Shown here: positions 13,557 to 47,529 of the stretch, in pieces
How positions within the stretch are numbered: the first letter of the stretch is position 1
Layout of the letters: each line of letters starts with the position of its first letter
Assembly (NCBI GenBank): GCA_032622095.1
Contig: CP136066.1
Location: 110,753,319-110,817,318, forward strand
DNA length: 64,000 bases
Origin: Siphonodentalium dalli
Lineage: Eukaryota > Mollusca > Scaphopoda > Gadilida > Siphonodentaliidae
Direction: 5' to 3'
Made by a program: the position numbers and the translations under genes
Notes under the pieces: model-generated
The model's database searches: none
The model's input: the letters and a program-made list of their open reading frames with translations, nothing else
Told to the model about the DNA's origin: nothing

Positions 13557-13592
13557 CAATTCAAGTTAAATATACCAATTTAACTTGAATTG
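13557..13592. repeat. 36-bp palindrome present once per satellite monomer (example copy)
   Basis: 'CAATTCAAGTTAAAT', a 6-bp spacer and 'ATTTAACTTGAATTG' make perfect 15-bp arms. The same palindrome is kept in essentially every 538-bp monomer. The paralogous half-monomer has 'caattccagttaaat' with the right arm lost. A repeated cruciform-capable site is a plausible structural or protein-binding feature of the satellite. Confidence 0.8.
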
Positions 13593-16500: not shown

Positions 16501-17152
16501 GTGCCCAAATATTTTTTTCCCATTGCCTCTATATATTCTAGAGTGAAATGTGGAATCATTTACAGAATGGGTATAGTCTGAGAGATGGCTGACTCAGAAA
16601 TATGTTTTCATAGGCACGGGTGCTGTATGGTTTTATCATGGGTGCTGTGGGTGTTGGGCTGTCTCAATACCCTTAAAACCCACTGAGGAGCCCAAACTTT
16701 GTGCAAACCATTTGCATAGATGCATACCTATCCACAAACAACAAAAGTGTTGGAAGTAGATACATATAATGGGTCATATGGCCCAATTCAAGTTAAATAT
16801 ACCAATTTAACTTGAATTGTCATGGGTGCTGTGGGTGTTGGGCTGTCTCCATACCCTTAATACCCACTAAGGAGCCCAAACTTTTGCAAATCTTCTTATA
16901 CTGATGCAGATATTTCCAAAAACACTAGGAGACCTAGAAGTATATACCTTTACAGGACCCAATTCCAGTTAAATATACCAATTTAACCATTAAAAAAAAC
17001 AAATATCCCCCCTGAATAGAGCCCAAAATGCTATTCAGGTGCCCAAATATTTTTTTCCCATTGCCTCTATATATTCTAGAGTGAAATGTGGAATCATTTA
17101 CAGAATGGGTATAGTCTGAGAGATGGCTGACTCAGAAATATGTTTTCATAGG

Positions 17153-23100: not shown

Positions 23101-24682
23101 GTGGGTGTTGGGCTGTCTCAATACCCTTAAAACCCATTGAGGAGCCCAAACTTTGTGCAAACCATTTGCATAGATGCATACCTATCCACAAACAACAAAA
23201 GTGTTGGAAGTAGATACATATAATGGGTCATATGGCCCAATTCAAGTTAAATATACCAATTTAACTTGAATTGTCATGGGTGCTGTGGGTGTTGGGCTGT
23301 CTCCATACCCTTAAAACCCACTAAGGAGCCCAAACTTTTGCAAATCTTCTTATACTGATGCAGATATTTCCAAAATCACTAGGAGACCTAGAAGTATATA
23401 CCTTTACAGGACCCAATTCCAGTTAAATATACCAATTTAACCATTAAAAAAACCAAATATCCCCCCTGAATAGAGCCCAAAATCCCATTCAGGTGCCCAA
23501 ATATTTTTTCCCCATTGCCTCTATATATTCTAGAGTGAAATGTGGAATCATTTACAGAATGGGTATAGTCTGAGAGATGGCTGACTCAGAAATATGTTTT
23601 CATAGGCCTGGGTGCTGTATGGTTTTATCATGGGTGCTGTGGGTGTTGGGCTGTCTCAATACCCTTAAAACCCACTGAGGAGCCCAAACTTTGGGCAAAC
23701 CATTTGCATAGATGCATACCTATCCACAAACAACAAAAGTGTTGGAAGTAGATACATATAATGGGTCATATGGCCCAATTCAAGTTAAATATACCAATTT
23801 AACTTGAATTGTCATGGGTGCTGTGGGTGTTGGGCTGTCTCCATACCCTTAAAACCCACTAAGGAGCCCAAACTTTTGCAAATCTTCTTATACTGATGCA
23901 GATATTTCCAAAATCACTAGGAGACCTAGAAGTATATACCTTTACAGGACCCAATTCCAGTTAAATATACCAATTTAACCATTAAAAAAACCAAATATCC
24001 CCCCTGAATAGAGCCCAAAATCCCATTCAGGTGCCCAAATATTTTTTTCCCATTGCCTCTATATATTCTAGAGTGAAATGTGGAATCATTTACAGAATGG
24101 GTATAGTCTGAGAGATGGCTGACTCAGAAATATGTTTTCATAGGCACGGGTGCTGTATGGTTTTATCATGGGTGCTGTGGGTGTTGGGCTGTCTCAATAC
24201 CCTTAAAACCCACCGAGGAGCCCAAACTTTGTGCAAACCATTTGCATAGATGCATACCTATCCACAAACAACAAAAGTGTTGGAAGTAGATACATATAAT
24301 GGGTCATATGGCCCAATTCAAGTTAAATATACCAATTTAACTTGAATTGTCATGGGTGCTGTGGGTGTTGGGCTGTCTCCATACCCTTAATACCCACTAA
24401 GGAGCCCAAACTTTTGCAAATCTTCTTATACTGATGCAGATATTTCCAAAAACACTAGGAGACCTAGAAGTATATACCTTTACAGGACCCAATTCCAGTT
24501 AAATATACCAATTTAACCATTAAAAAAAACAAATATCCCCCCTGAATAGAGCCCAAAATGCCATTCAGGTGCCCAAATATTTTTTTCCCATTGCCTCTAT
24601 ATATTCTAGAGTGAAATGTGGAATCATTTACAGAATGGGTATAGTCTGAGAGATGGCTGACTCAGAAATATGTTTTCATAGG
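17153..24682. repeat. Two complete 7-monomer higher-order repeat units of 3,765 bp
   Basis: Diagnostic variants recur exactly 3,765 bp apart. 'tttgcataggcacggg' is at 17691, 21456 and 25221. 'ccatacttttaaaaccc' is near 18466 and 22231. 'cataggcctgggtg' is at 19842 and 23607. 'cccaccgagg' is at 20444 and 24209. 'cccttataaccc' and 'gcacacctatcc' follow 17153 and 20918. Seven times 538 minus one is 3,765. An earlier partial unit (13925-17152) matches, but with two extra monomers, and a partial unit follows 24682. Confidence 0.92.
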
Positions 24683-27157
24683 CACGGGTGCTGTATGGTT
24701 TTATCATGGGTGCTGTGGGTGTTGGGCTGTCTCAATACCCTTAAAACCCACTGAGGAGCCCAAACTTTGTGCAAACCATTTGCATAGATGCACACCTATC
24801 CACAAACAACAAAAGTGTTGGAAGTAGATACATATAATGGGTCATATGGCCCAATTCAAGTTAAATATACCAATTTAACTTGAATTGTCATGGGTGCTGT
24901 GGGTGTTGGGCTGTCTCCATACCCTTAAAACCCACTAAGGAGCCCAAACTTTTGCAAATTTTCTTATACTGATGCGGATATTTCCAAAAACACTAGGAGA
25001 CCTAGAAGTATATACCTTTACATGACCAAATTCCAGTTAAATATACCAATTTAACCATTAAAAAAACCAAATATCCCCCCTGAATAGAGCCCAAAATCCC
25101 ATTCAGGTGCCCAAATATTTTTTTCCCATTGCCTCTATATATTCTAGAGTGAAATGTGGAATCATTTACAGAATGGGTATAGTCTTAGAGATGGCTGACT
25201 CAGAAATATGTTTGCATAGGCACGGGTGCTGTATGGTTTTATCATGGGTGCTGTGGGTGTTGGGCTGTCTCAATACCCTTAAAACCCACTGAGGAGCCCA
25301 AACTTTGTGCAAACCATTTGCATAGATGCACACCTATCCACAAACAACAAAAGTGTTGGAAGTAGATACATATAATGGGTCATATGGCCCAATTCAAGTT
25401 AAATATACCAATTTAACTTGAATTGTCATGGGTGCTGTGGGTGTTGGGCTGTCTCCATACCCTTAAAACCCACTAAGGAGCCCAAACTTTTGCAAATTTT
25501 CTTATACTGATGCGGATATTTCCAAAAAAACTAGGAGACCTAGAAGTATATACCTTTACATGACCAAATTCCAGTTAAATATACCAATTTAACCATTAAA
25601 AAAACCAAATATCCCCCCTGAATAGAGCCCAAAATCCCATTCAGGTGCCCAAATATTTTTTTCCCATTGCCTCTATATATTCTAGAGTGAAATGTGGAAT
25701 CATTTACAGAATGGGTATAGTCTTAGAGATGGCTGACTCAGAAATATGTTTGCATAGGCACGGGTGCTGTATGGTTTTATCATGGGTGCTGTGGGTGTTG
25801 GGCTGTCTCAATACCCTTAAAACCCACTGAGGAGCCCAAACTTTGTGCAAACCATTTGCATAGATGCATACCTATCCACAAACAACAAAAGTGTTGGAAG
25901 TAGATACATATAATGGGTCATATGGCCCAATTCAAGTTAAATATACCAATTTAACTTGAATTGTCATGGGTGCTGTGGGTGTTGGGCTGTCTCCATACCC
26001 TTAAAACCCACTAAGGAGCCCAAACTTTTGCAAATCTTCTTATACTGATGCATATATTTCCAAAAACACTAGGAGACCTAGAAGTATATACCTTTACAGG
26101 ACCCAATTCCAGTTAAATATACCAATTTAACCATTAAAAAAACCAAATATCCCCCTGAATAGAGCCCAAAATCCCATTCAGGTGCCCAAATATTTTTTCC
26201 CCATTGCCTCTATATATTCTAGAGTGAAATGTGGAATCATTTACAGAATTGGTATAGTCTGAGAGATGGCTGACTCAGAAATATGTTTTCATAGGCATGG
26301 GTGCTGTATGGTTTTATCATGGGTGCTGTGGGTGTTGAGCTGTCTCAATACCCTTAAAACCCACTGAGGAGCCCAAACTTTGTGCAAACCATATGCATAG
26401 ATGCATACCCATCCACAAACAACAAAAGTGTTGGAAGTAGATACATATAATGGGTCATATGGCCCAATTCAAGTTAAATATACCAATTTAACTTGAATTG
26501 TCATGGGTGCTGTGGGTGTTGGGCTGTCTACATACCCTTAAAACCCACTAAGGAGCCCAAACTTTTGCAAATCTTCTTATACTGCTGCAGATATTTCCAA
26601 AAACACTAGGAGACCTAGAAGTATATACCTTTACAGGACCCAATTCCAGTTAAATATACCAATTTAACCATTAAAAAAACCAAATATCCCCCCTGAATAG
26701 AGCCCAAAATCCCATTCAGGTGCCCAAATATTATTTTCCCATTGCCTCTATATATTCTAGAGTGAGATGTGGAATCATTTACAGAATGGGTATAGTCTGA
26801 GAGATGGCTGACTCAGAAATATGTTTTCATAGGCACGGGTGCTGTATGGTTTTATCATGGGTGCTGTGGGTGTTGGGCTGTCTCAATACCCTTAAAACCC
26901 GCTGAGGAGCCCAAACTTTGTGCACACCATTTGCATAGATGCATACCTATCCACAAACAACAAAAGTGTTGGAAGTAGATACATATAATGGGTCATATGG
27001 CCCAATTCAAGTTAAATATACCAATTTAACTTGAATTGTCATGGGTGCTGTGGGTGTTGGGCTGTCTCCATACCCTTAAAACCCACTAAGGAGCCCAAAC
27101 TTTGTGCAAACTATTTGTATATAGATGCATACCTATCCACAAACAACAACAACAGTG

Positions 27158-28812
27158 TCTATAGTATAGTATTTGAGGAGCATTGCCATTATGGAATTTA
27201 TTCTGTCATTTGTCAACTATTTACAGCTTATTTTTTTATATAAATAACTAAACACCTTATGAGATGTCTGGAAAATAATGATATATTATTGTGACCCATT
27301 ATAGGTATATAACTGTAAGGAAACACAGATTTATAAAACTTTAGTCATGTTATCTGAGAGATAGATGTCTTTGTTAGCTATTCTGGTCATTACTGTATAC
27401 TGTTATTCTGAAATTACGATCTTGCGCCGTTGCGCATGCCCGCCCGGATGTTTACATTATTTGCGGTGTTTGTATACAATCGGTTTGTTATGGGTGGGTG
27501 GTTGGTCTCCGAGCTCGAGCTTTATGTCTCTCGAAAAGTAACTTTTCATGCTTTTGTTTACATAACAATGGTCAAAGATATGACAATAACATACTATTTA
27601 TGCGATATTTCTTATTTGTGTACGGACAAAGTCTGTCTACATTTTGTTGTTCTTTCTGTTTGTGGCGGTTTTTGACGGGTGGAAATATTTTCACAGGATA
27701 CCCACCGCCAAGGCATTGAAAGACCAAGATTGTGAAATTTGTATTAAAGATTTTCTAATTGGAGCATCCCATGTTGTTTCTAATACAAATTCAGCAATAT
27801 GTAATGCACTTCATATTTACTTTGAATCTACCGAGAGACTGTGATTACATATCAACTGCAGTATACTTTTTCTGCTTAAGTTTAACTTGCAGATTGATAC
27901 ATGTGGATGTGTCAAATTTATATGGTTATTATATCACAACTTTAATTGAATATTGAAACATTTTACACTCTAAACTCTTACTCATTGCCATCAACAGTAT
28001 TTTCAGGACAACCCTGTTTTATTTAATCTTATTTTGTGACTTCATACTTAATGATTATTAGGAATTTCCATGATACAAGATATGTACAGCATTAAATTGT
28101 CATGTGTCCTTGTTTGTCAACTTTTTGTATTTTTCTGTTTGGACCCAATAAAATAGGCTGTGCCTGAGTTTTGGGTCCAATTCATTCAAGAGTTAATGAA
28201 TAAATGTATTAAACAAAAATATGGATAGCACAAGTCTCATAATTTAATTTTCATTATTCACAGCTGAACAATGATCAAAATTACAATATATTATGGAGAG
28301 ACAGCATCCCTACATATCGCTGAGAATTAAGACACACAACCTCCAACATTGGAAGGACTGGCACAGGGCTGAGAAAGCGAGACTTGGTTCTTAAAAGGTT
28401 AAAATTTCTCAATATAATTATATTTAAGATGCAGCTGATAATCATTTATTAAGCATATGGATATATAGTTCGACTACATCCAAATCATAATTAATTCCCT
28501 GTTAATAACTGAACCTTGTTTATACGAAAAATGGATATAAATAAATCGAGATAACATACATGCATTATTTCTGAATGGACACTTGAAAGCACAAATAAAG
28601 GCCCTATATTTCTACTTCAGATATGATTCCCCCCCCCCTGGTGATCATATAACTCGTTATATAGAACTTAGAAATAAAGGTCATGGAAATAATAGAGGAG
28701 CTAGTAACCCTTTGGGAATGATGGAATTTGTGAAACTCAGTAAATGTATCATTTCTATTCAGTTGACAATTATTTTTGTTTCTTTGTTTATACGGAAAGA
28801 TGACCACAGCTT
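27158..28812. other. Low-copy AT-rich sequence, no gene recognised
   Basis: Apart from the MITE fragment at 27532-27715 I see no gene. Several 60-110 residue open frames lack splice signals or domain motifs. An AATAAA at about 28148 is isolated. Confidence 0.45.
27532..27715 (-). mobile_element. Partial, inverted relative of the 494-bp TTAA MITE
   Basis: From 'cgaaaagtaactttt.atgc' to 'acccaccgccaaggc' this is the reverse complement of about 190 bp at the left end of the elements at 31530 and 32787, with more divergence than those show to each other. The outermost bases of the terminus are missing, so it is a truncated or older member. Confidence 0.75.
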
Positions 28813-30317
28813 AAAAAAAATGAATCAAATAAAGAATTCAATCAAACTGTCCTGCACTACCACGATACATGTGAACGAAATCTTGATGTATCCACAGTTC
28901 AAGGTTAGTGTCATATAACAAAAGGTGAAATAATATCTTGCTGGAAAGAAATGACAAATTGGTTGGTCGTGGTTCAAAACTCCAGACTCAGTAGTTTAAT
29001 TAGAACCGAGTACATTACTACTACACTTGTGCACTTAATATTTCCCCATACTAGCTGGGGTACACCAAGTTGCTTGGATAAAGAATGAGTAAAGTATTAG
29101 TGCCCCTTCAAGTCATTTAAATTAATTATTAGTCACCTGAGGTAAACATCACCTATTGCATGACACTCTCCAGATAAAAAAAGCTCTGTATTGACAACTA
29201 TTAGTGCCTCTTTAAAACCTATATACTGTCTAAGCTGACAAAGAGCGCTCTTTATTACTCATAATAATGATAATATAATTAATTTTATCACAGATACAAG
29301 GAAACAACAAATATGACAGAAGGGCATCAAAGTTGCTGAGAAAAGGGTTTGAAGGTATAAACAAATTCCTAGTGGTTTTTCCTGAAGACTGACCACAATC
29401 CACATCTACTTGGAGAGGTGAATTATGACTTATGGATGATATGAATAGGTGTAGAAAGAAGAGGCCGATCATGGCGATAGTAGAGGCACAGGATCTGTAA
29501 TGCTGCACCAGCGCAGCAGATTAGATGTGAAAATGTGACCCGACATGTAATACTTGGGTTAATAGAAAAAAAATGAATCAAATAAAGAATTCAATCAAAC
29601 TGTCCTGCACTACCACGATACATGTGAACGAAATCTTGATGTATCCACAGTTCAAGGTTAGTGTCATATAACAAAAGGTGAAATAATATCTTGCTGGAAA
29701 GAAATGACACATTGGTTGGTCGTGGTTCAAAACTCCAGACTCAGTAGTTTAATTAGAACCGAGTACATTACTACTACACTTGCGCACTTAATATTACCCC
29801 ATACTAGCTGGGGTACACCAAGTTGCTTGGATAAAGAATGAGTAAAGTATTAGTGCCCCTTCAAGTCATTTAAATTAATTATTAGTCACTTGAGGTAAAC
29901 ATCACCTATTGCATGACACTCTCCAGATAAAAAAGCTCTTTATTGACAACTATTATTGCCTCTTTAAAACCTATATATTGTCTAAGCTGACAAAGAGCGT
30001 TTTTTATTACTCATAATAATGATAATATAATTAATTTTATCACAGATACAAGGAAACAACAAATCTGACAGAAGGGCATCAAAATTGCTGAGAAAAGGGT
30101 TTGAAAGTATAAACAAATTCCTAGTGGTTTTTCCTGAAGACTGACCACAATCCACATCTACTTGGAGAGGTGAATTATGACTTATGGATGATATGAATAG
30201 GTGTAGAAAGAAGAGGCCGATCATGGCGATAGTAGAGGCACAGGATCTGTAATGCTGCACCAGCGCAGCAGATTAGATGTGAAAATGTGACCCGACATGT
30301 AATACTTGGGTTAATAG
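28813..30317. repeat. 753-bp direct tandem duplication
   Basis: 28813-29565 and 29566-30317 match end to end, both starting 'aaaaaaaatgaatcaaat' and both ending 'tacttgggttaatag', with only scattered substitutions. Each copy carries a 92-residue open frame on the minus strand (29230-29508 and 29982-30260) with a hydrophobic start. The frames differ at three amino-acid positions (Pro/Leu, Tyr/Asp, Glu/Lys), which gives no sign of coding constraint. Part of the unit resembles a dispersed repeat near 34690-34860. Confidence 0.92.
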
Positions 30318-31320: not shown

Positions 31321-31529
31321 CGACTGCAATCACACAGCGGTTGGATACAATTTTGATAAATAATATCAGAGATACAGTTATTGCTGGCATAACATATGTT
31401 GATGTTGTGGAGGAAATACTAAACCAAGTAGTCAGAAACATGTTTTCCCCAGACCAGATGCCATCAGAATACAACACCAGGTTTTTCCCAGATAGACCCA
31501 CATTCGATTTCATATTAATTCAACATTAA

Positions 31530-32023
31530 AGACACGGTTGGCCTTGGCGGTGGGTATCCTGTGAAAATATCTCCACCCGTCAAAAACCGCCACAAAAAGA
31601 AAGAACATCAAAATGTAGATAGACTTTGTCCGTATACAAATAAGAAATATCGCATAAACAGTATGTTATGGTCATATGTTTGACCATTGTTATGTAAACA
31701 AAAGCATAAAAAGTTACTTTTCTGGTGTTTGTTTATATTATGATGGTAAACATAAAGAGCGTTCTTTGTTGGTGAATACCTGATATGGAACTAATAAAGA
31801 GCGTTTATGCCATTTGTGTGTGATTAGCCAGTAGCATTGTGCTGTCTTCTGTAACACAATCAGGCTCTTGCTTAGGTAAAATATAGTAGGTCTTTGTGAT
31901 AACATGCTGTTTACGCGATGGTCATGGTATATATGAACGGAACTGTATGCGTTTTAATGTTTTTCTGTTTACGGTGTTTGGAACAAATATGAATATTTTC
32001 GACAATTAAGGCCGCACGTGCCT
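31530..32023. mobile_element. 494-bp TTAA-flanked MITE, copy 1
   Basis: Target duplications are TTAA at 31526-31529 and 32024-32027. The left terminus is AGACACGGTTGGCCTT; the right terminus reads inward AGGCACGTGCGGCCTT, an imperfect inverted pair. No transposase. Same length as copy 2, with roughly seven mismatches by eye, so both are recent. The TTAA target and AG(A/G)CACG end fit the Kolobok/T2 MITE group (inference). It interrupts coding sequence of the surrounding pseudogene. Confidence 0.92.
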
Positions 32024-32129
32024 TTAAGTAAACAAGACAACTCCAGAGATGACCAAGAAAACACAGTTGCATTTCTAAAAGACCTACAGTTGAAGAGTCC
32101 TGACCATAAATATATGTTCAGGTTTGACC

Positions 32130-32375
32130 ATAATAAATTATTATTTGCAACCTCCTACCGACCCAATATGAAAAAAGAGCATCGCTAGGGCAAAATATGC
32201 CAATGGTAATTCCAACAAAGGTCCATAACTCAGGTGAAAATTGGCGGGCAAAACCCACAATCGAACTTGACTTGTATTTTGGGCCGCGAAAGTCACATAC
32301 CAAATTTCATTCCAAACTTACAAAAGTTATCATCCGGAAACGAAAAAAAGCGAACGGACGGATGGACAGATAGAC
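32130..32375 (+). repeat. Dispersed 'gagcatcgctaggg' repeat in an intron
   Basis: Contains 'aagagcatcgctagggc', 'ggtccataactcaggtgaaa', 'aagttatcatccggaaacg' and a 'cggacggatggacag' end. Inverted relatives lie at 38460-38715, and a start-only copy at 37748-38000. It occupies the intron between 32122 and 32702. Confidence 0.7.
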
Positions 32376-32786
32376 GTATCAACCAATAACATTAATATTT
32401 CGCAGATCCAAATAAATGAATGGGAATAAATGGTGGTTGTGATGATACATGTGGGTGGAATTACATAGATGTGTCGATAATTTGTAATACCTCTTGGTCT
32501 AGATTTATATTGCCAAAAAAAACTGTTCACCTAAAATAAGTGAACGGTTCATATTGCATACAGGTCTCACATTAGGGCAAGAATGTTGTTGAATACTAGC
32601 CAAACTATCCACTTGACTATTTCTATTTCTGTGGTTTCAATAATGCATACATGTATCTAATTAATATACATATATATAATATATATATAACTATATCTAC
32701 AGGTCACTGGAAACAGATGAAGATAATAATCAGCAACAGTTTCTGTTGGTTCATCAAACAGGATGGCAAAGGGAGCTTCTGGTTAA

Positions 32787-33280
32787 AGACACGATTGGCC
32801 TTGGCGGTGGGTATCCTGTGAAAATATCTCCACCCGTCAAAAACCGCCATAAACAGAAAGAACATCAAAATGTAGATATACTTTGTCCGTATACAAATAA
32901 GAAATATCGCATAAACAGTATGTTATGGTCATATGTTTGACCATTGTTATGTAAACAAAAGCATAAAAAATTACTTTTCTGGTGTTTGTTTATATTATGA
33001 TGGTAAACATAAAGAGCGTTCTTTGTTGGTGAATACCTGATATGGAACTAATAAAGAGCGTTTATGCCATTTGTGTGTGATTAGCCAGTAGCATTGTGCT
33101 GTCTTCTGTAACACAATCAGGCTCTTGCTTAGGTAAAATATAGTAGGTCTTTGTCATAACATGCTGTTTACGCGATGGTCATGGTATATATGAACGGAAC
33201 TGTATGCGTTTTAATGTTTTTCTGTTTACGGTGTTTGGAACAAATATGAATATTTTCGACAATTAAGGCCACACGTGCCT
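32787..33280. mobile_element. 494-bp TTAA-flanked MITE, copy 2, inside a coding exon
   Basis: TTAA lies at 32783-32786 and 33281-33284. Removing the element plus one TTAA joins 'ctt ctg gtt aaa tgt aga aat' without a frame change, and the protein continues LLVK-CRNDCTFVDATY. This is direct evidence of insertion into an exon that was in frame at the time. Termini as in copy 1 (AGACACGATTGGCC... / ...GGCCACACGTGCCT). Confidence 0.95.
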
Positions 33281-33475
33281 TTAAATGTAGAAATGATTGC
33301 ACCTTCGTGGATGCAACTTATCAAACTACCAAATATAACCTGCCATTATTCTTCCTCGCTGTAAAGACAAATTCACAGTATGTTGTTGTTGCTACATTTA
33401 TGGTGGCAACCGAATCAACATGCTGATGAACATAACATCACAGACACTATACTAAAAGTCCTTGGACATCAGAGA

Positions 33476-34901
33476 TGAGCATTTTGCGTTGAGCATATTT
33501 GTCTACACGTTCTGAAAAAAAATCTCTTCAGTGGTACTTTTTTCCTTAGTTTACCCTAATGTTCCTGGACGATATACTTAAAAGCATCATTGACAAATAG
33601 TTATCCAGCCCTTGAAATTAGGAAAAATAATAAATATGAATTGAAGGCCCAGCCTGGAAACGCTTCTATTAATTAATATTGATTTTATTTCTATTTTCCC
33701 AGTATAATACAATAACTAGCAAGCGTTAGAACTCTTTCTCTATCTGAGATTTCCTGATAGTGTCATGATATGTTAGGTGTTTAAGGCAATGTGGGGTAGT
33801 AAGAAGCAAAATTTCCTTTAGATAGCAGTACTGCATCATAGCCACATTTTGTTTTTGTTTTATTAATTTATATTTTAATCTAACAGTACTAATATATGAT
33901 TTTATAACAACAATTTTTACAACATATTTACCATATACATGTGTCAAACAAATGAAGGTTGTAATTTGAATGCATACAAAATCTAAATTTTTCTATTAAT
34001 TATGTGATGGTGGATTGTCAAGTGGTACCCAAATCCAATAATGAAATAAAATCTGAGACATAATTAAATAAAATGTTCCTTTCTCTTTGGCTAGAATAAC
34101 CATTAATTCTGCCCTTAAATGGTTTCTTTTTAAGTTCAGGAAATGTTTTTCCTTTTCAACTTCACGATCGATTGTCTCCTTTACATTCAACATGGCTTCT
34201 GGGAGTTATATTGAGAGTACTGGTACTGAAAGAGATATAAATATGGATAAACAAATTAGTAAGACGTGAAAATTAACATAACAATTTCAGACTAAAAATT
34301 TAAGAAATGGAAGTTAATTTGATATTGTTTTGTTTCATTCAACAAGAAAGAACAAATCAAGTATTGACTTCAAATCATGGAGGGTCTTTCGATTGACTTT
34401 AGGGCAATTCATCAGACATAAATGACTGTTTGTACAGTTTGTATTATTTAATGAAGTTTGAAATTACTCTGTATCTAGCTGAGGTATATGTATATGTGAG
34501 ATACTGCATGACTCTTGATTAATACACATTCTATATACAAGGAAAAAAATATACATTCAGATGCTCGATCTGCTGGATGATCATCGTCTGCAGAAATGAG
34601 GTCAACAACACCCATCCCGTGACATTCCCCCGTGTCATTTTACTTTTATGCACCAATTTTCCACATATGTTCTGATAATAAAAGCTCTTTATTGATCATA
34701 TAATTTATCAGCCCCCTCCCTTTAAGTCATCTGAGGGCAATTGTGCTATCCCATGACATTCCCCTGGTCAGGTGACCCATCTGTACCAATATTCCTACAT
34801 ATCTTCTAATCTGACAAGGAACGCTCCTTATTGCTCACATTTGCCCCTTTAAATCATCAATGGCATCTGTCCCATGACTCTCCCTGGGTCAAGTTATCCT
34901 A
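33476..34901. other. AT-rich interval, one weak coding-like stretch
   Basis: Mostly non-coding. On the minus strand about 33996-34235, a 'ctctttcag' acceptor precedes an open stretch that includes KETIDREVEKEKHFLNLKRN, a charged, coiled-coil-like composition. There is no second exon and no domain I can name, so it is at best an exon fragment. At 34600-34870 there is a dispersed repeat with 'ccatgacattcccc..ggtca' and 'gctc.ttattg' modules, also seen in the 753-bp duplication. Confidence 0.4.
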
Positions 34902-35344
34902 GATAATGCCACGAATCTCTACTCTGCTAACGCCCGTAGAGTCATATTTCCACCAGTAAAAAACCTTGGAACTTTTTGATGTTTTGACAGGGAACCTTAT
35001 AATGTGGAAAAAAAATAATGTGGGGAATATATTTCTTTGTTGTTAATTGTTCCTTAGCCGATATCGCAATAAACATCACAATTAATTTCCCAGGAGAAAT
35101 GCCATAATTGTAAGCGACTCAACACAAAATCGCGCAGAAATTCAGATGAAGTGTAAAATTTTGATTCGGGACCTTCACCTGCAGTGAAGTACATTATTAA
35201 GGAACTGATTATAACTGAGAAATATATTTATTGTGCTATGGCTTCGACTTTATAAGGTTCCCTGTCAAAAAAGTTCCAAGGTTTTGTACTGGTGGAATAT
35301 GTTCTCCACAGGCATTAGCCAGAGTAGAGATTCGTGGCATGATC
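34902..35344. mobile_element. 443-bp palindromic MITE with ~95-bp TIRs
   Basis: The left arm begins 'gataatgccacgaatctcta', includes 'ccttggaactttttga' and 'gacagggaacctta'. The right arm mirrors it: 'aaggttccctgtc', 'aagttccaagg', 'agagattcgtggcatgatc'. A diverged half copy lies at 3473-3640. No ORF; target duplication not obvious. Confidence 0.8.
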
Positions 35345-35948
35345 TAAATTTATCCCTGTGATTCAATTTTCACTGACCATATAGTTTTATACCACCGCCA
35401 CAAAGTTGTGGGGGGATATACTGGAATCAGCTTGTCCGTCTGTCCGTCCGTGGACACAAATTTGTCCGGAGTTTTTCTCAGTCGTTTTTTAATCATTTTC
35501 CGTGAAACCTAGCACAGACTTCAACCACCATGGGAACCTATGCACCTGCGATTATGAGGTCTGTCCGACTTTTTTTGTTTCGATTCATAAATTCAGGGGT
35601 AGAATTTGTCAGAGCTTTTATTCCTACATTTTTATTTCAATTTTCTTTAAAATTCTTACATTTCTGATGGATTTATCGTATGCCCTTGTCCTTGTTTGGC
35701 ACTTTTAGTATGAGTCGAGTTTGGATGTGCCATTCAGTACTGAAAATTTACCAGTGGAATAAAGCCAAAAGAGGTGTCAAATTATTGTTGTATGTTGTTC
35801 CGTCCTTCCCACGAGATGGGAGAAATTGCTCTCGCACCGTACGCACTCATAATTTTCAATTTACTGGTGCTAAATTTCACACTCGTTCCTCTTTTCAAAA
35901 TACTGCAATCATTGATTCAACTATTTTAAGGTTTATTTAGATCCTTTA
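35345..35948. other. No gene recognised
   Basis: Contains a short dispersed repeat with a 'gtccgtctgtccgtccg' run at about 35430-35455 and AT-rich sequence. It lies 3' of the minus-strand pseudogene stop, so it may include its former 3' UTR. Confidence 0.4.
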
Positions 35949-36175
35949 TCAGTCTCGGTGTGTTTTCCTCGTGGGAAGGACTGGCTGTTGTTGAATCCAG
36001 AGGGCTGCAACCCTGAATATATCTTTAATAAGTTGAACTAACCTCGCTTCAATAGATTTAGAGGAGATCGGTATACCATCTTCATTTGGCACCTTGGCTA
36101 CTATATCTTCATTTATTTGAATTAGGGATGCCTCAAGCTCACAGAGCTGCATGGGATTGATTGTAATGGTAAGTA

Positions 36176-36375
36176 CAATAATGCTCTAATTAATCGACTC
36201 CTTCACCACAGCAGAATTATGGGTAACTTTTCAGGATTTAGTCGGAAATATGGCTTGTTGCCATTCATCGGAGAGCTTTCCGATAAAAGGCAACAAGCCA
36301 TATTTCCGACTAAATCCTGAAAAGTTACCCATAATTCTGCTGTGGTTAAGAAGTCGATTACTTAGGGCATTACTG
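36176..36375. mobile_element. 200-bp near-perfect hairpin MITE with TA duplication
   Basis: Arms 36205-36262 and 36289-36346 are 58-bp exact inverted repeats. Imperfect pairing extends to the ends CARTAATGC.../...GCATTACTG. TA flanks both sides (36174-36175, 36376-36377), as for Tc1/mariner-type MITEs (family by inference). Removing it joins the codons for the D-A-T-Y motif of the pseudogene in frame, so it landed in coding sequence. Confidence 0.9.
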
Positions 36376-36562
36376 TAGCATCCCTTATGCTCTGAAGCAG
36401 TTCCCTGCACTTTGAAGCTTTTGATGTTCTCGTTGCTGTTGTCAGTTGATTGATACCAGTTTGACAATCTGGTTGGCCGTCATCTGCATCTGATTCTTCA
36501 GGTTCTTTTTGAAGCTGTAAATTATATCACATTCATAATTCATGTATGTGCTTATGCCATAT

Positions 36563-36790
36563 GTCTGTCATTCAGTCTGCCTCTATGATCATTTATTATT
36601 ATAACTTGTGTGTTGGTTGTCTGTCATTCAGTCTGCCTGTATGAACATTTATTACCATAACTTGTTTGTTGGTTGTCTGTCGTTCAGTCTGCATGTATGA
36701 ACATTTGTTATTATAAATTGTGTGTTGGTTGTCTGTCATTCAGTCTGCATGTATGAACATTTATTATCATAACTTGTGTGTTGCTTATTG
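36563..36790. repeat. 56-bp tandem repeat, four copies
   Basis: 'gtctgtcattcagtctgc' recurs at 36563, 36619, 36675 and 36731, each followed by 'tgtatgaacattta..at.ataa.ttgtgtgttg'. It lies in an intron of the minus-strand pseudogene. Confidence 0.9.
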
Positions 36791-37015
36791 GATTATGTGT
36801 ATGTTCCCTGTGTGACTCACATCCAGATGTGTTAAAATGAGGTCACCCGGTCAAATAGTTGTGAAGCCAGGGCCGTTACTCTTTCCCTCCACAGTAATGT
36901 CTTAAAATGACTTCTTCTGAAGAACTATTGGGAATATTTAGCTTATATATGGTATGGAGGGTCCTCGGGTGACTGGGGTTCAGATTGGTTCAAATGGGAC
37001 CAAAGGGTCAAATAA
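36791..37015. repeat. Dispersed 'agggccataactctt' repeat, copy 3
   Basis: 'gttccctgtgtgactcacat', 'caaatagttgtgaagccagg', 'actctttccctccacagtaa', then a second half with 'gtgactggggttcagattgg'. Same module order as the copies at 9.4 and 10.6 kb. Confidence 0.65.
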
Positions 37016-38459
37016 TGACAATGCTTAAAAAATTTTATAAAGTTTATCTAATTTTTTATCTTAAACATCAATTTAAATTTGAGATGGAATCCCATGTGTT
37101 CTAGAAAGTCTGTCTGTCAACAAATTATTATTTCTCTTGAGAAGTGAGTGAGGTTTGAATATCTGGCTGGTCAAAAGTGGCAGAGGTAGGGATTTAACAC
37201 TTAAGGTTCCAATGAGTTAACTAAAATTAACTCCTACACAAATCCTCCGAAATCACTTGCCGTTGTTTACTGGAGTTCAGAACCCGATTTGTTGTGAGTT
37301 CTCAGTGTGTACAACCATTTTGCATTGTATTTATATTCCAACTTAGTACTTACATGATCTTGGGAAAGTATGGCATCCATGTCAATTGTGTAATTTGGGT
37401 GGTTAATATACTTTCTGGATAACTGTATGAATGGAAATTGCATATACTGCCATCATATGTTTGCATGGTAGTTTCTTCATCTCCCAATCAGAGTATATTT
37501 TGGCAGCTGTTCTACTCCATTATCCCCAAATGACACATAACTTTTCACATGAAATATTGCCACCCGTTGTTGTGATGCAACGTATATTTCGGAGCTGAAA
37601 GAGAAATATTTTTGTTGTTTCATACACTTGATTACCCGTAATTCATTATAATAAAACAGATAATTTAAGATAATTATAATGAATTAATGTCTGTCTGGGT
37701 TATATAGGATCTTAATGAAATTTCTTAATTATTCCCCCCTTTTTAAAACAAGAGCATCGCTAGGGTGTGGCAATATATGCCGTTCAGCCATTTCATATTG
37801 TACTACCACAAAATAAAAACATAATTTGAGCTTACAAAGAATATCTGAATATACCCCTATAGTTTTATCTTTGGTTCACGTCAAATAATCCAAACATGAG
37901 TTATCGATCGGACACCAAAATGTTATGAAATCGGTCAAATTCTAAGTCGAAAAAGAGCCATAACTCATGTAAAATAATTGGACGGAACCTAAATCTCAAA
38001 GAAATTAGGTAGGGATGTTCACTGCTAGGAGGACATTCAATTGTTTTTTTTTCTCGGATTTTCCATTCTAGAGTTATTCTAGGTAATTAGGTATGCCCAC
38101 ATACTAGACAGTATATGCCACATGGGGTTAAACACTGGACAACAGTCAATCTCTTGCTGTAACAAATTAATTTAGAGTTAAAACTATTGTTTTACCTTTG
38201 AGGTTTATCTTCTGCATACAGTGTTTTACGAACGTTTGAGGCTTCTCCGACAGTTGATGTGGCACCATTGCATACTGTATTTTGATCCCGTTACAGTACA
38301 TTAATGTGTTGTGTTTGCGATATCTAGAAATTAAAGGAAAAGTCCACTATAAATAATTATCTATAATATAATCATGATGTACCTCCACACGACCATATCA
38401 AAGATAATATATTCAGACATTTTGTATTTTTAAACATTTTTATACGCCCGTTTTGAAAA

Positions 38460-38715
38460 AAGGCATATTATGTTATTGGTGTGTCCGTCCATTCGTTTTT
38501 TTCATTTCCAGATCATATGATAACTTTAATAAATCTGAACTGAATGTACTGAAATTTGGTATATTGGTTTACTAGCAAAAAAATATAGGTCAAGTTTGAA
38601 CTTAGGTTCCGCCCGCAAATTTTCACCAGAGTTACGGCCCTTTATGTTGGAATTTGCACTTAATTTTCGTTTCCGGATGATAATTTTAGTACGTCTGAAT
38701 TTAATTGTTGTTTTG
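38460..38715 (-). repeat. Dispersed repeat, inverted relative of 32130-32375
   Basis: The reverse complement reads 'attatcatccggaaacgaaa', 'gggccgtaactctggtgaaa' and 'tgcgggcggaacctaagttc', matching the intronic repeat at 32.2 kb. The outer end carries 'gtgtgtccgtccattcg'. Confidence 0.65.
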
Positions 38716-39670
38716 TTGACCACATGGCAAGTTAAAACATGTTTGTGTTAATATTCAAATATTTTTTTTACATACATACTGAACATAAAAAATATAATAT
38801 GGCTGTCCGTAGACGTACATAATTGCCAACTAAGTTGAAGGAGCTCCCGGGAGTGTACACATATTTACTTCTTATGTGTCACTTTCATGTATTTATGAAC
38901 CAGCACAGTTAACATCCGCTTCAGGGTGAGTGACTTAGTTATCTTTATAAACTTTTTGGCAGCCTGATTCTGGCGCTCAAGTACATTATTTGTATTCACA
39001 ATGACCCACATATCCTTCCGGTAAGCCCAAATCCATTTCTACAATCTGAATGTATATCGATTATTATGCATGCAATTGTGTGATGATGCCACATTCAACA
39101 AAACACAAGTTAGTATCCAATTGGCCTCCATATCCACTGGGGTGAACCAAAATGCATACAACAAACAGACAATATCATCCATGGATTGATTAATTCTAGT
39201 TTGATTCAACAAATGGTAATTATGTGTTTACTTTTCAAAATTGTTCAATCTTTTCCCATTTCCTCAAAATAATGGGTGATATGCTCAAAAGCCTTATCAT
39301 TCAGTGCATTCAATCACAACCAAAGCTTAAATATAATACTCACTTCTTTGCAACTGAGCCAAGTGTTCGGGAACCAACCACTAAACTTCTTGGACTCCTT
39401 CCATACTTTGTGTGACTGTAGACGCTCCAACGAATTCTTCAGTTCATCTGCAGTTGAAGAGTCTGCAACTCTCCCCATTAGCTTCCTCAAATCAGATGCT
39501 TCCTTTGAGACACCATTGTTGTTAGAATTTGTCCACATCAACCATGCCTGTTCTCGGTGGAAATCACATAAAAGTATTTTGCATCCTGAAAAAGAAAAAA
39601 GCTGTCAGATTGTGGTGTAATTATCTCCACTTAAACCGTTCCATGGCTGCAGCTTCCCGAAAACCCTGTT

Positions 39671-39738
39671 TCAATGCATTCTCTTATATATTTAAGTCTC
39701 CCATAGGGAGCCTAGCATTTATAAGAGAATACATTGGC
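39671..39738. repeat. Second copy of the 909-979 hairpin family
   Basis: 'tcaatgcattctcttatata' is mirrored by 'ataagagaatacattgg' around 'gtctcccatagggagc'; the preceding 'gaaaaccctgtt' matches the flank of the first copy. A left-arm-only copy sits at 40180-40235. Confidence 0.7.
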
Positions 39739-40508
39739 CTAAAATATTTACATTGACATTGTATAAATAAGAATATGCATCAACCTGTGTATAATTGCCA
39801 CACATATACCATACACTTGCAATGTCAAGGAGTAGCACATTATAGTACTTACATGAGTGGACGTTATCTTAACTGCGAGGATCAAAATAAAAATGCTATT
39901 ACAGTGACAGTCAACACCCATACGCTTGCCACGTGTATTAACTTTCTCTTATCCTTTACCGGCATCAGCCCATTCGCTTGTCATGATATTGTGTTCTAAA
40001 TATAGTAACGAAAAAATGTCTCACTTGATTATCCCATTATATTAGAAAATATCATTTAAAATCAATAATAATTTATAGAAGAGTTTTCGGGCACGTGTCT
40101 TTGACTCGTTTTTATTATTAGGAAGAGATAGACAATCTTTAACCCTTTCATGATGGGAGCTGCACTGTTGTAGTTTTAAAGATCCTGTGTCAGTGCATTC
40201 CCTTATATATGCGAGTTTCGCCATTAGTCTGAACATTCGGTGGTGTTAATCTAAAACAACCATATGTTAGGCGAAAACAGCTTTTTATATACAGGTGCTA
40301 GCCTGTGGAATGATTACACCAAACTCATCCCTCATGCAATATTAAACACTGGAATTATTCAGTAAAAGTCAAGTTATTCAAGAGAATGAGAGACATGGTG
40401 GAGTCCGACTATATCTATTACTAACGTACATTGTGTTCTAAATTTTGTTGTGTATCTGTCCACCCTTTCAATTGAATGTCATCCTATCACTTTTCGCTGT
40501 TTATACAG
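39739..40508. other. AT-rich interval, no firm gene
   Basis: Holds a half hairpin (40180-40235) and, on the minus strand at 39995-39960, a possible tiny exon (acceptor TTTAG, donor GTAAAG) whose phase would join the 39585 exon. Too short to be sure. Confidence 0.4.
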
Positions 40509-41397
40509 GCAACATATGTGGTCAGCATGGGCTTTCCAAGCTAAATCACTTCTTGGACACAGTGGGGTGGTGGGATGGCATTCAGGACAGATATGCTTGG
40601 CACATCCTGGGATTGATTGCCCTTGGTGGTATATATGTTCCGATTTGGGCATGTCTTTTACCATGAATGCATGTATGGGGTTCCATTCAATCCGACACTG
40701 GTATCTTACCCTTGCCATTTCTATACAACACCTGTGGTCAGCATGGGGTTATCTATTAAACCTAAGGTGCCAGAAATTGTGGGGGTGGGGACTGTGTGGA
40801 AGCGGGTGAGGAATGTCATATGGAGGTTCCACAGTAAGTTTTATTCACACTGATTTATACAACATTTAGTGGAGTAGAAAGTTCTGAACCTGTTGTGTGG
40901 CCTCTCGTGTGACTGGGACTGATTTTCTATATTCCGCGCTCTTACTTTTACATATCACAGCTCTAAATGAGATCATGATATATATTATACAGAATAATAT
41001 ATAGAAAGGGATTTAACTTATGTTATAGACATAATTTATATACACATAATGTTATACTATTTTCATATCATTGCATTGTCAGCATGTAAAATGAACGTTA
41101 TCAAAATGAAATCTAATCTAATCTAAAAAGAAAACATTACCAAAAAGAACTATTAAATAGGATGGATTTGTCATTTCAGATTGTCCTAAAAAGATGAAAT
41201 TCAACACAACCAAGAACTTGACGAAGAATTCCATAGTGGACTATGTATAAAAGAATGTGTGAAAGGGTGTGTGATGTGTGATGGGTGTTCGAGGTGGTTT
41301 CATTTTGAGTGTGTTCGTTTGAAACGTGATGAGAGTTGTTTGTGTTAAGGAGTTAAATGGTTTTGTGCAGAGGGATGTTATATATATTACCATAAGA
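40509..41397 (+). pseudogene. PHD-finger gene remnant, two exons with stops
   Basis: The acceptor ...TATACAG precedes 40509. One frame reads VFYHECMYGVPFNPTLVSYP, then PKVPEIVGVGTVWKRVRNVI, ending ...WRFH at the donor CCACA|GTAAGT (40833). It contains two stops near its start and is not recognised. After the acceptor CATTTCAG at 41179 the frame continues NCPKKMKFNTTKN. After a frameshift the sequence reads CVMCDGCSRWFHFECVRL, then (after a stop) VKWFCAEGC. The Cys/His spacing CxxC...WFHxxC...WFCxxxC is that of a PHD zinc finger. PHD fingers bind histone tails, and also occur in some retrotransposon ORF1 proteins; which applies here is unknown. Frameshift and stops indicate a dead copy. Confidence 0.5.
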
Positions 41398-41412: not shown

Positions 41413-41876
41413 TGTGCACATCACATGCCTTCTAAACAGTGAGTGATAAATAATTAAAATATAATTTTTATTAATATTTACCTATAAGTAGATACAGGTA
41501 TGAATCAACCACCCATATTCTTCTCCCTGCTACTGGTAACTGGTCATTTTACAGTGTACAAGTCCTGTTTCCATTTTAACACTTCCCATGGTTGACAGGA
41601 AGCAGTGATTGGACACAATGTACTGGCCAGTTATAATAACAAAGAATTTAAAATTGTTGACAGTTGTCATCCCAGTGATCATTTCCTATGGCCAGTTAGC
41701 TATTTCCTGTGAGGAGTAGAAATGAACAGCACTTGTACACTGCAAAATGACCAGTTACCAGTAGCAGGGAGAATATGGCGGCTTGATTCATACCTATATT
41801 TACTTATAGGTAAATATTAATACAAAATATATTTTAATTATTTATCACTCACTGTTTAGAAGGCCTGTGGTGCACA
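41413..41876. mobile_element. 464-bp long-TIR (foldback-like) element
   Basis: Arms of about 150-170 bp mirror each other. Left landmarks are 'cttctaaacagtgagtgata', 'ttacctataagtagata' and 'ctgctactggtaactggtca'. The right arm carries their reverse complements, ending '..ctgtttagaagg..gtgcaca'. The centre (about 41580-41720) is unpaired. No ORF. Outer limits are approximate and no target duplication was resolved. Confidence 0.75.
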
Positions 41877-43555: not shown

Positions 43556-46277
43556 TTATCTAGCGCCAGATACGAATTTTATCGGGTCGCCGAGCCCGTG
43601 CGACGCCAGCTTCGCGCATGCGCAGACCAGATCTCGGAAACGGGTGGAGCTATCGACTTGAAATTTGGTTTTTGAATAGCCCGGACAACGTCGGGCTCAT
43701 CGGCTAGTCTCATATATATTTTGAAGACCTCTCTTTGTCTGTCTGTCTGTATGTATGTCTGTCTGTCATTTATACAAATCTACGATTCTCGACCGATCGG
43801 GACGAAACTTGGTACGTGTGTGTAGTTTGACCAGGCGGTCGTCCTTGTCGTATTGGCGAGCCCGTGCGACGCCCGTGCAGCGCATGCGCAGACGAGATCT
43901 CGGAAACGGGTGGAGCTATCGACTTGAAATTTGCTATGTGAATGTATCTTGCCCCGGATACGAATTTTATCGGGTCGCCGAGCCCGTGCGACGCCAGCTT
44001 CTCGCATGTGCAGACCAGATCTCGGAAACGGGTGGAGCTATCGACTTGAAATTTTGTTTTTGAATAGCCCGCACAACGTCGGGCTCATCGGCTAGTCTCA
44101 TATATATTTTGAAGACCTCTGTTTGTCTGTCTGTATGTCATTTATACAAATCTACGATTCTCGACCGATCTGGACGAAACTTGGTACGTGTGTGTAGTTT
44201 GACCAGGCGATCGTCGTTGTCGTATTGACGAGCCCGTGCGGCGCCCGCTTCGCGCATGCGCAGACGAGATCTCGGAAACGGGTGGAGCTATCGACTTGAA
44301 ATTTGCTAAGTGAATGTATCTTGCCCCGGATACGAATTTATCGGGTCGCCGAGCCCGTGCGACGCCAGCTTCGCGCATACGCAGACGAGATCTCGGAAAC
44401 GGGTGGAGCTATTGACTTGAAATTTGGTATGTGAATGTACCTTGCCCCGGATACGAATTTTATCGGGTCGCCGAGCCCGTGCGACGCCAGCTTCGCGCAT
44501 TCGCAGACCAGATCTCGGAAACGGGAAACGGGTGGAGCTATCGACTTGAAATTTGGTTTTTGAATAGCCCGGACAGCGTCGGGCTGGGTAGAGCTATCGA
44601 CTTGAAATTTGGTTTTTGAATAGCCCGGACAACGTCGGGCTCATCGGCTAGTCTCATATATATTTTGAAGACCTCTGTCTGTTTGTCTGTCTGTTTGTCT
44701 GTTTGTTTGTTTGTCATTTATACAAATCTACGATTCTCGACCGATCGGGACGAAACTTGGTGCGTGTGTGTAGTTTGACCAGGCGGTGGACGTTGTCGTA
44801 TTGGCGAGCCCGTGCGGCGCCGCTTCGCGCATGCGCAGACGAGATCTCGGAAACGGGTGGAGCTATCGACTTGAAATTTGCTATGTGAATGTATCTTGCC
44901 CCGGATACGAATTTTTGAAATTTGCTATGTGAATGTATCTTGCCCCGGATACGAATTTTATCGGGTCGCCGAGCCCGTGCGACGCCAGCTTCTCGCATGT
45001 GCAGACCAGATCTCGGAAACGGGTGGAGCTATCGACTTGAAATTTTGTTTTTGAATAGCCAGCACAACGTCGGGCTCATCGGCTAGTCTCATATATATTT
45101 TGAAGACCTATGTTTGTCTGTCTGTCTGTCTGTCTGTATGTTTGTCTGTATGTCATTTATACAAATCTACGATTCTCGACCGATCTGGACGAAACTTGGT
45201 ACGTGTGTGTGGTTTGACCAGGCGATCGTCGATGTCGTATTGACGAGCCCGTGCGGCACCCGCTTCGCGCATGCGCAGACGAGATCTCGGAAACGGGTGG
45301 AGCTATCGACTTGAAATTTGCTAAGTGAATGTATCTTGCCCCGGATACGAATTTTTGAAATTTGCTATGTGAATGTATCTTGCCCCGGATACGAATTTTA
45401 TCGGGTCGCCGAGCCCGTGCGATGCCAGCTTCGCGCATGCGCAGACCAGATCTGGGAAACGGGTGGAGCTATCGACTTGAAATTTGGTTTTTGAATAGCC
45501 CGGACAACGTCGGGCTCATCGGCTACTTGAAATTTGGTTTTTGATTAGCTCGGATGAATAGCCCGGACAACGTCGGGCTCATCGGCTAGTCTCATATATA
45601 TTTTGAAGACCTCTGTCTGTATGTATGTATGTATGTATGTCTGTATGCCATTTATACAAATCTACGATTCTCGACCGATCGGGACGAAACTTGGTACGTG
45701 TGTGTAGTTTGACCAGGCGGTCGTCGTTGTCGCATTGGCGAGCCCGTGCGACGCCCAAGCAGCGCATGCGCAGACGAGATCTCGGAAACGGGAAGAGCTA
45801 TCGACTTGAAATTTGCTATGTGAATGTATCTTGCCCCGGATACGAATTTTATCGGGTAGCCGAGCCCGTGCGACGCCAGCTTCGCGCATGCGCGGACGAG
45901 ATCTCGGAAACGGGTGGAGCTATCGACTTGAAATTTGCTATGTGAATGTATCTTGCCCCGGATACGAATTTTATCGGGTCGCCGAGCCCGTGCGACGCCA
46001 GATTCGCGCATGCGCAGACGAGATCTCGGAAACGGGTGGAGCTATCGACTTGAAATTTGGTAAGTGAATGTATCTTGCCCCGGATACGAATTTTATCGGG
46101 TCGCCGAGCCCGTGTGATGCCAGCTTCGCGCATGCGCAGACGAGATCTCGGAAACGGGTGGAGCTATCGACTTGAAATTTTGTTTTTGAATAGCCCGGAC
46201 AACGTCGGGCTGGGTAGAGCTATCGACTTGAAATTTGGTTTTTGAATAGCCCGGACAACGTCGGGCTCATCGGCTAG
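43556..46277 (+). mobile_element. Head-to-tail array of Helitron-like non-autonomous elements
   Basis: Five full units start TCTCATATATATTTTGAAGA and end in CTAG: 43708-44095, 44096-44651, 44652-45086, 45087-45589 and 45590-46277. A 5'-truncated unit (43556-43707) precedes them. Each 3' end has the hairpin AGCCCG...CGGGCT six bases before CTAG. A TC start, a CTRR end preceded by a GC-rich hairpin, and no terminal inverted repeats or target duplication are Helitron hallmarks. The array is followed by T. Units differ mainly in the number of internal 122-bp repeats and in (TGTC/TGTA)n length. No Rep/helicase is present. Many 60-119 residue open frames here only translate the repeat. Confidence 0.8.
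45776..46200 (+). repeat. 122-bp GC-rich minisatellite inside the Helitron-like units
   Basis: 'gagatctcggaaacggg' recurs at 45776, 45898, 46020 and 46142 (period 122), linked by 'tgaatgtatcttgccccgga' and 'gccgagcccgtgcgacgcca'. Other units hold fewer copies, and one has a short duplicated 'gaaacgg' (44518-44530), showing expansion and contraction. Confidence 0.85.
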
Positions 46278-47344
46278 TTATAATATATAATAATAAATCG
46301 AACTTCTCCATGTTCCGTATAGATACAGATGAAGTGCTCAAGTTGATCTCAAAGTTATCCGACACACATCTACGGACTTCAATAATATTTTGGTATAAAT
46401 TAATGAAACAAACAATAATTGAAACCGTCGACTCACTAACCCATATTTTCAATCTGTCCTTCTGTATAGTATGGTTGACCACACATGAGCAATCAAACAA
46501 TTACTGACATACTGCCCAGTGCATTATGATGCCACATGGAGTGCATTGGCCAACAAACTTGAACGATGTATGTGCGCATGTACCATTATAATTGTGCGGT
46601 GAATGTTATAAGCCTAAGATGAAATCACTATAATGCATATCTTTATATATTCACTCAGACGTATTTCAATGTCGTCAAAAAGATGGGAATCAGATACCTA
46701 CGGGAACTATTTTGTTTATAATTTTGCTTCCGATCATGCTACTACCATTTCACTGGGTTTTTTTTTTTGCCATATCAATATGTTAGAATATGCTAAATAG
46801 TAATTGCTGGAAAGAATCAGACTCATATAATTTTGTTTCATGTTATTCTGATATATTTACACATTTTGGGGGGTGGTCCCAAAAAATAAATCGTTTGCAC
46901 AGAGGGTGGGGGTGGTCAAGTAACTGAAATATTGTTTTCGACCCTGTGCCTTCAAATTTTGTCACGACCCCACCCAAAATGTTTGTCATATAACATTTCG
47001 GTTAAAACTGCATATCTTTAATCGAAACAAGAGTAATTTTTGTAATATATAGAAACACGTTATATAATATGCATATTGTGTTATTTTACATGTTCCGTGT
47101 AAGTTTGACTGGGACAAACAATCCACAGAACTTGTAGTTATTTTTAAAACATTTCATTTTATCTAAAATATATCTTTTATAACACTTTTAAGCGGATTGT
47201 ATGGTGCTCGTCTCGTGTTTCATGTGTGTTATTTGGTAATCATAACTGAAATGTGTCTTCAGAGGGATTTTCAAAGAATTCTGTTATAAAATGTCACCAA
47301 TAGAATTCCACAAACTAACCGACCAATCACCTTGTCTGTTACAG
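46278..47344. other. Spacer and putative P450 intron
   Basis: No exon recognised. At about 46862-46986, 'acattttggggggtgg' faces 'ccccacccaaaatgt', a short inverted repeat of the same C/G-run style as sequences at 57.2 and 59.0 kb. The end (about 47330-47344) is the acceptor of the P450 exon. Confidence 0.45.
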
Positions 47345-47529
47345 GTCGTCGTATGTGTTTGGGAGATTCGATGGCGAAAACTGAGCTCTTCCTATACTTC
47401 TCAACATTGGTCCAGAAATTCGAATTCAAAAAGGAATCGCCAGATGTCCATCTTTGTTTTGACCCAGTGCTCGTGTTCACGTACCATCCAAAGAAGTACA
47501 GACTTGTTTGTATTCCACGGAATGAATAG
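47345..47529 (+). CDS. Cytochrome P450 (CYP2-like), terminal haem-binding exon
   Basis: The acceptor TCTGTTACAG is followed by GRRMCLGDSMAKTELFLYFS, the end of the FxxGxRxCxG haem-thiolate signature (invariant Cys and Gly present) and helix L. It then reads HPKKYRLVCIPRNE and a stop at 47527-47529. The exon starts in phase (needs one base to make the Gly codon), and its size, about 60 codons, matches the last exon of CYP2-clan genes. The protein would be an ER-bound haem monooxygenase; the substrate cannot be inferred. No other exon of this gene was found in the 47 kb upstream, so the intron is either very large and filled by repeats or the exon is orphaned. An AATAAA lies at 47722-47727. The same strand carries a second P450 at 56.8 kb, suggesting a tandem cluster. 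Confidence 0.9.

Follow-up and report, generated by a model that had tools for sequence, protein, structure and literature searches.

A stretch of 64,000 nucleotides from the scaphopod mollusc Siphonodentalium dalli (NCBI GenBank assembly GCA_032622095.1, contig CP136066.1, forward-strand positions 110,753,319 to 110,817,318; hereafter the window, numbered from its first nucleotide) carries two dead pieces of coding sequence derived from a Mutator-like (MULE) transposase, which probably formed a single gene until a small inversion split it. The N-terminal part (N half) occupies 28.8–33.47 kb of the plus strand, and the C-terminal part (C half) runs along the minus strand in exons from 39586 down to 35952. 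Their content is complementary: ALS2CR8 sequence and the RNase-H core with its first aspartate (D1) are present only on the plus strand, while the CDFH motif, the region of the catalytic glutamate (E) and the SWIM finger are present only on the minus strand. We propose that the ancestral locus would have been one intron-bearing ALS2CR8(CaRF)-MULE-SWIM gene originating from a Mutator-like transposase, that this gene was cut within its RNase-H core downstream of D1, and that a small inversion flipped its back part, which would reach from ~33.5 kb to no less than 39.6 kb and perhaps past 40.7 kb. One inverted gene is favored because the halves are complementary in content, are cut in one and the same core, lie on opposite strands, have no second copy by tblastn in the 64 kb, have decayed to a similar degree and fit each other in geometry.

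The plus-strand half was defined by Pfam profile searches. The end of the ALS2CR8 domain (PF15299, profile positions 163–220) scores 29.0 bits at 31323–31493, just above the curated cut-off of 28.9, within a piece that extends over 31323–31529 up to an insertion, element A; in a different joined reading the same family reached only 24.4 bits, under the cut-off. Profile positions 55–90 are matched by a decayed stretch at 28799–28909 (21.9 bits, E = 1.8e-4, cut-off 28.9) that sits within a tandem duplication of ~0.75 kb, and positions 91–162 were not located in the Pfam scan of frames near the N half. Downstream come a coding piece reading LSKQDNSRDDQEN...SPDHKY (32024–32113), with no Pfam match of its own, and a second piece, LLVHQTGWQRELLV (32703–32786), which is directly preceded by a ctacag acceptor and which the joined reading includes in its match to PF21056. 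The RNase-H core, with its first aspartate in the motif DATYQTTKY, lies at 33281–33475, is frameshifted near 33424 and breaks off at 33475, still within the core. The region around the motif (~33253–33417) matches PF21056 (ZSWIM1-3 RNaseH-like; 23.9 bits, E = 4e-5) and PF10551 (MULE; 22.8 bits, E = 1e-4), both under their curated cut-offs of 27.2 and 27.6, respectively, and the opening residues of the PF21056 match fall in inserted DNA. These matches uphold a first-pass annotation that had placed N-terminal and DATYQTTKY parts on the plus strand at 31.3–33.5 kb, including its downstream end; its upstream limit had to be given up, because the ALS2CR8 piece at 28799–28909 makes the N half longer.

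The minus-strand half comprises exons bearing CDFHREQAW, NTNNVLERQN, FVKHCM and LPCKHM, followed by a C-terminal exon, just as had been claimed for 39.6–35.9 kb from CDFHREQAW, the SWIM-like LPCKHM and the C-terminal parts. The exon GCKILLCDFHREQAW...WLSCKE, which contains CDFHREQAW, spans 39344–39586 and has an acceptor and a gtgagt donor. The exon KWIWAYRKDMWVIVNTNNVLERQN... (38869–39038) probably carries the catalytic glutamate, a placement made by analogy with the MULE motifs in excerpts from PMC5225508 and with motifs of the family; read by eye, CDFH and NTNNVLE are 95 residues apart. It is followed by the exon YRKHN...FVKHCMQKINLKG (38196–38323), which has no Pfam match, and by the SWIM exon (37412–37594), for which PF04434 (cut-off 19.6) gives 19.5 bits when the reading is pieced and 13.8 bits in the unpieced frame. 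Two frame breaks interrupt this exon, and the first CxC of the finger can be read in none of its frames, though LPCKHM is kept. The C-terminal exon (~35952–36514) has a palindromic insertion inside it and matches no Pfam family above cut-off. In Pfam profile searches of the minus half alone, SWIM was the only relevant match and no MULE match appeared; we read the remaining minus-strand exons as members of the same family from their motifs, helped by the joined alignments. By eye, donors and acceptors are plausible and the frame is retained at the junctions 39344 to 39038, 38869 to 38323 and 38196 to 37594. Together with the acceptor on the plus strand, this marks the gene as intron-bearing. 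A 56-bp unit in four tandem copies (36562–36786) also lies within the putatively inverted segment.

No second copy of either half came up in a tblastn search of the 64 kb with both halves (E ≤ 1), whose 13 rows were just the known pieces, and this bears out the initial impression that the halves hardly overlap in content. Pfam frame scans around both junctions also contained no second N or C half; they covered all three frames of the plus strand at 24.9–31.4, 33.4–34.5 and 40.4–44 kb and of the minus strand at 33.4–44 kb, together with two of the three plus-strand frames at 34.5–39 and 46–49.5 kb, and scans this wide can miss matches of ~23 bits (a PHD-like frame scoring 22.9 bits alone was not listed). 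The same observations bear on a second, distinctly less probable explanation, in which the halves are independent truncated relics of two members of one family that lie tail to tail and are complementary by chance. This is a real alternative because MULE domains are numerous in some bivalves: excerpts of one study count 193 MULE transposase domains in one clam and 1–83 in six other bivalves (PMC7826175), and excerpts of another describe a MULE expansion in a further bivalve genome (PMC9993606). The locus is rich in repeats and insertions, and independent relics require no special event to account for diverged flanks or for the unrecovered segment around the second aspartate. However, neither tblastn over the 64 kb nor Pfam in the scanned frames, with its limited sensitivity at ~23 bits, revealed any leftover of the other half at either place, and the two ends fit each other to within a few tens of ~600 residues, for which we estimate a chance of about one in ten under independent truncation.

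Both halves are dead, with frameshifts in each, a SWIM finger that has lost its CxC and insertions within exons. By hand count, the N half has two frameshifts (near element A and near 33424) and one stop soon after the second in ~190 codons, and the C half has three frameshifts in ~370 codons (two in the SWIM exon and one where the palindromic insertion interrupts the C-terminal exon). The density of disruptions is similar, at three in ~190 versus three in ~370 codons, and because they are so few, no age difference between the halves can be separated. Two of the insertions are copies of one 494-bp element. Elements A (31530–32023) and B (32787–33280) each break the coding sequence between copies of TTAA, are identical at 487 of 494 positions and have ends that match in part when inverted (12 of 18 terminal bases in A, 13 of 18 in B); a third, partial and inverted copy at 27533–27714 shares 95% identity with element A across 182 bp. 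Their closest known counterparts are short TTAA-flanked non-autonomous elements of the piggyBac type, which they resemble in their TTAA flanks and partly matching inverted ends. The spacers at 31.53–32.02 and 32.79–33.28 kb were also considered as introns or as a plain tandem duplication; both readings were rejected since each copy is bounded by a separate pair of TTAA sites and the flanks differ. A 204-bp palindrome (92%) with TA at both ends, at 36174–36377, interrupts the C-terminal exon. This damage makes it very improbable that the halves work as separate genes or are joined by trans-splicing: several exons do retain open frames and plausible splice sites, but both halves are frameshifted, the SWIM CxC is gone and exons are interrupted by insertions.

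The geometry of the cut was judged from the spacing of the catalytic motifs. The plus strand supplies 50 residues after D1 and the minus strand 101 residues before E, and by a ruler of D1-to-E spacing, which varies among families, ~53 residues including the second aspartate are expected between the halves. This segment was found neither by eye around the junctions nor by the Pfam frame scans, and a first motif for the second aspartate gave 17 matches in the window, five of them at 28–50 kb and none fitting. Among 13 motif rows at 31–46 kb, one candidate was picked by eye: a sequence beginning QCRIEWNPIHAFMVKD..., at approximately 40608–40700 on the minus strand, on the same strand as the C half, whose first exon follows ~1 kb downstream. 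When this candidate is inserted behind the D1 piece and ahead of the CDFH exon, the three form one MULE alignment covering profile positions 3–95 of 99, and the score rises from ~23 to 32.5 bits, above the cut-off of 27.6. The D1 piece alone scores 23.2 bits, the remnant without the CDFH exon 28.4 and the remnant with its own continuation 28.6. Nine control inserts between the same flanks ranged from 21.7 to 28.4 bits: one hand-scrambled insert of 30 residues, not checked as an exact permutation (22.8), four of seven shuffles (28.4, 22.2, 23.0 and 24.1) and four of twelve other motif contexts (24.8, 22.3, 23.2 and 21.7). PF21056 is little changed (24.0 bits with the remnant versus 21.7–22.3 with controls), and the remnant alone has no Pfam match. 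It is a possible remnant of the second-Asp segment; if it is real, the halves fit more closely and the right breakpoint lies beyond 40.7 kb. Our preference for the inversion was set without adding weight for it. Plus-strand open frames of 139 and 78 residues, the latter without a Pfam match (E ≤ 1), lie opposite at 40390–40853; they perhaps represent an exon from a different gene, and in that case would weigh against the remnant.

A diverged inverted repeat lies near the predicted breakpoints and roughly matches the places named for them in the first-pass annotation (33.4–33.6 and 39.6–40.4 kb). Its left arm, near the predicted left breakpoint, is at 33626–33715 on the plus strand and its right arm at 40029–40119 on the minus strand (92 bp, 74%); the core is identical at 92 of 130 positions, and a weaker alignment continues to 33992 and down to 39742 (236 of 396). 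Its score of 47 exceeds the maximum of 30 in 500 dinucleotide shuffles, none of which reached it; of 473 random window pairs, 4 equalled it. As a marker of the breakpoints the repeat is no more than suggestive. The idea that the inversion itself produced it as a duplication (33.63/40.12 kb) was rejected, as by our estimate it is too diverged for so few frame breaks, and a second inverted repeat at 32.2/38.6 kb was rejected as the source of the inversion since its arms do not suit the gene order. A fuller scheme, in which the inversion arose between diverged inverted repeats (perhaps), is still polymorphic (perhaps) and has D1 and the second-Asp remnant, CH motif and E all within ~8 kb, we regard as improbable. 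Divergence also bears on whether the inverted segment is an assembly artefact, that is, a misjoin or the other haplotype. Tandem and inverted repeats are plentiful in the window and could favor such an error, but the pair near the junctions is only ~71–74% identical, unlike the near-identical arms of a chimeric-read foldback, and each half has decayed independently; we consider an artefact unlikely.

Several observations weigh against the inversion. Among overlapping window pairs of the same spacing, 9 of 284 reach the score of the inverted repeat, at three places of which the repeat itself is one, and its divergence suggests that it predates the gene's decay. The right breakpoint falls at ~40.1 kb by the repeat and beyond 40.7 kb by the remnant, and both clues are weak. 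The remnant is graded as possible because it was picked by eye; its motif, in a regular expression written after the remnant was seen, occurs at least once in 8 of 100 shuffled windows, and one of the nine controls, the shuffle scoring 28.4 bits, also carried the MULE alignment through to CDFH. Joining the halves by a spacer of X residues gave no rise in Pfam scores. Finally, no co-linear relative was found in viral contigs, prokaryote genomes, phages or plasmids, the last two searched with the C half only. The earlier claim that an inversion broke the gene is partly supported: the complementary content, the opposite strands, the lack of a second copy by tblastn in the 64 kb, the similar decay and the fitting geometry speak for it, and the weak breakpoint clues disagree between 40.1 and >40.7 kb.

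The searches for relatives are summarized as follows. In viral contigs, one pattern match to the C half and five to the N half were obtained, none of which was confirmed. DNA patterns for CDFHREQAW had no match in viral contigs or prokaryote genomes, and patterns for DATY.TT.Y matched two stretches in each, where tblastn of both halves remained at chance level (best E = 1.4); one of these DATY.TT.Y loci (L002) was rejected as a relative since its motif frame belongs to an unrelated protein. The C half had no match in phages or plasmids and gave three rows against solved structures, with E values of 1.4–2.1. Among the literature matches listed for gene-breaking inversions and for this protein family, none concerned this locus.

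Proteins of the ALS2CR8/CaRF-like type with a MULE core combine PF15299, PF21056 and PF10551 in one architecture. The locus resembles them in having ALS2CR8 pieces followed by DATYQTTKY in an RNase-H core, here on the plus strand, and differs in being split over two strands and decayed, with plus-half matches to PF21056 and PF10551 under their cut-offs. In MULE transposases of animals, for example Muta1 from Aedes aegypti, the order is D1, CH motif, E, with a C-terminal SWIM finger given for Muta6, according to excerpts of PMC5225508; the order at this locus is alike, in a gene that is intron-bearing and dead. Excerpts of PMC6446971 give a target duplication of 8–11 bp for Mutator elements in many groups. 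No long terminal inverted repeat encloses the gene among the eight pairs listed for 28–45 kb. Excerpts of PMC5080602 describe Drosophila inversions whose breakpoints cut genes and have inverted sequence close to each of them; the case there rests on comparison with the other arrangement. The present locus likewise has a gene apparently cut at a breakpoint and inverted sequence near both; unlike the Drosophila cases (PMC5080602, as excerpted), it is read from one arrangement alone, and its inverted pair is perhaps an older repeat.

The locus illustrates how an invertebrate transposase-derived gene is dismantled, by insertions, by frame breaks and probably by a local inversion, and serves as a warning that in annotation the two halves should not be called two genes. 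That insertions and rearrangements leave broken relics of transposase-derived genes is already known; this is ordinary genome decay, and it opens no new biology.

Scans of the window for tRNA genes and Rfam families gave no hits. A tandem array at 12131–27145, with a spacing of ~538 bp and ~98% likeness over many kb, forms a satellite-like block of ~14–15 kb. Further tandem repeats at 43557–46267 have units of 121–122, 440, 56 and 44 bp, and G+C content is 50% at 44–46 kb versus 36–38% in adjacent 2-kb bins. A short repeat with a palindromic core is shared by 899–993 and 39660–39751 (76 of 95 positions identical), with a weaker copy at 40136–40224, and two large foldback (self-complementary) elements lie at 34900–35346 and 41413–41876. 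The short PHD-finger-like frame on the plus strand at 41190–41348 reaches 22.9 bits by itself against a cut-off of 24, and was on this ground rejected as the last exon of the gene. A C-terminal piece of a cytochrome P450 lies on the plus strand at 47341–47505 (PF00067, 29.5 bits, cut-off 22.8).

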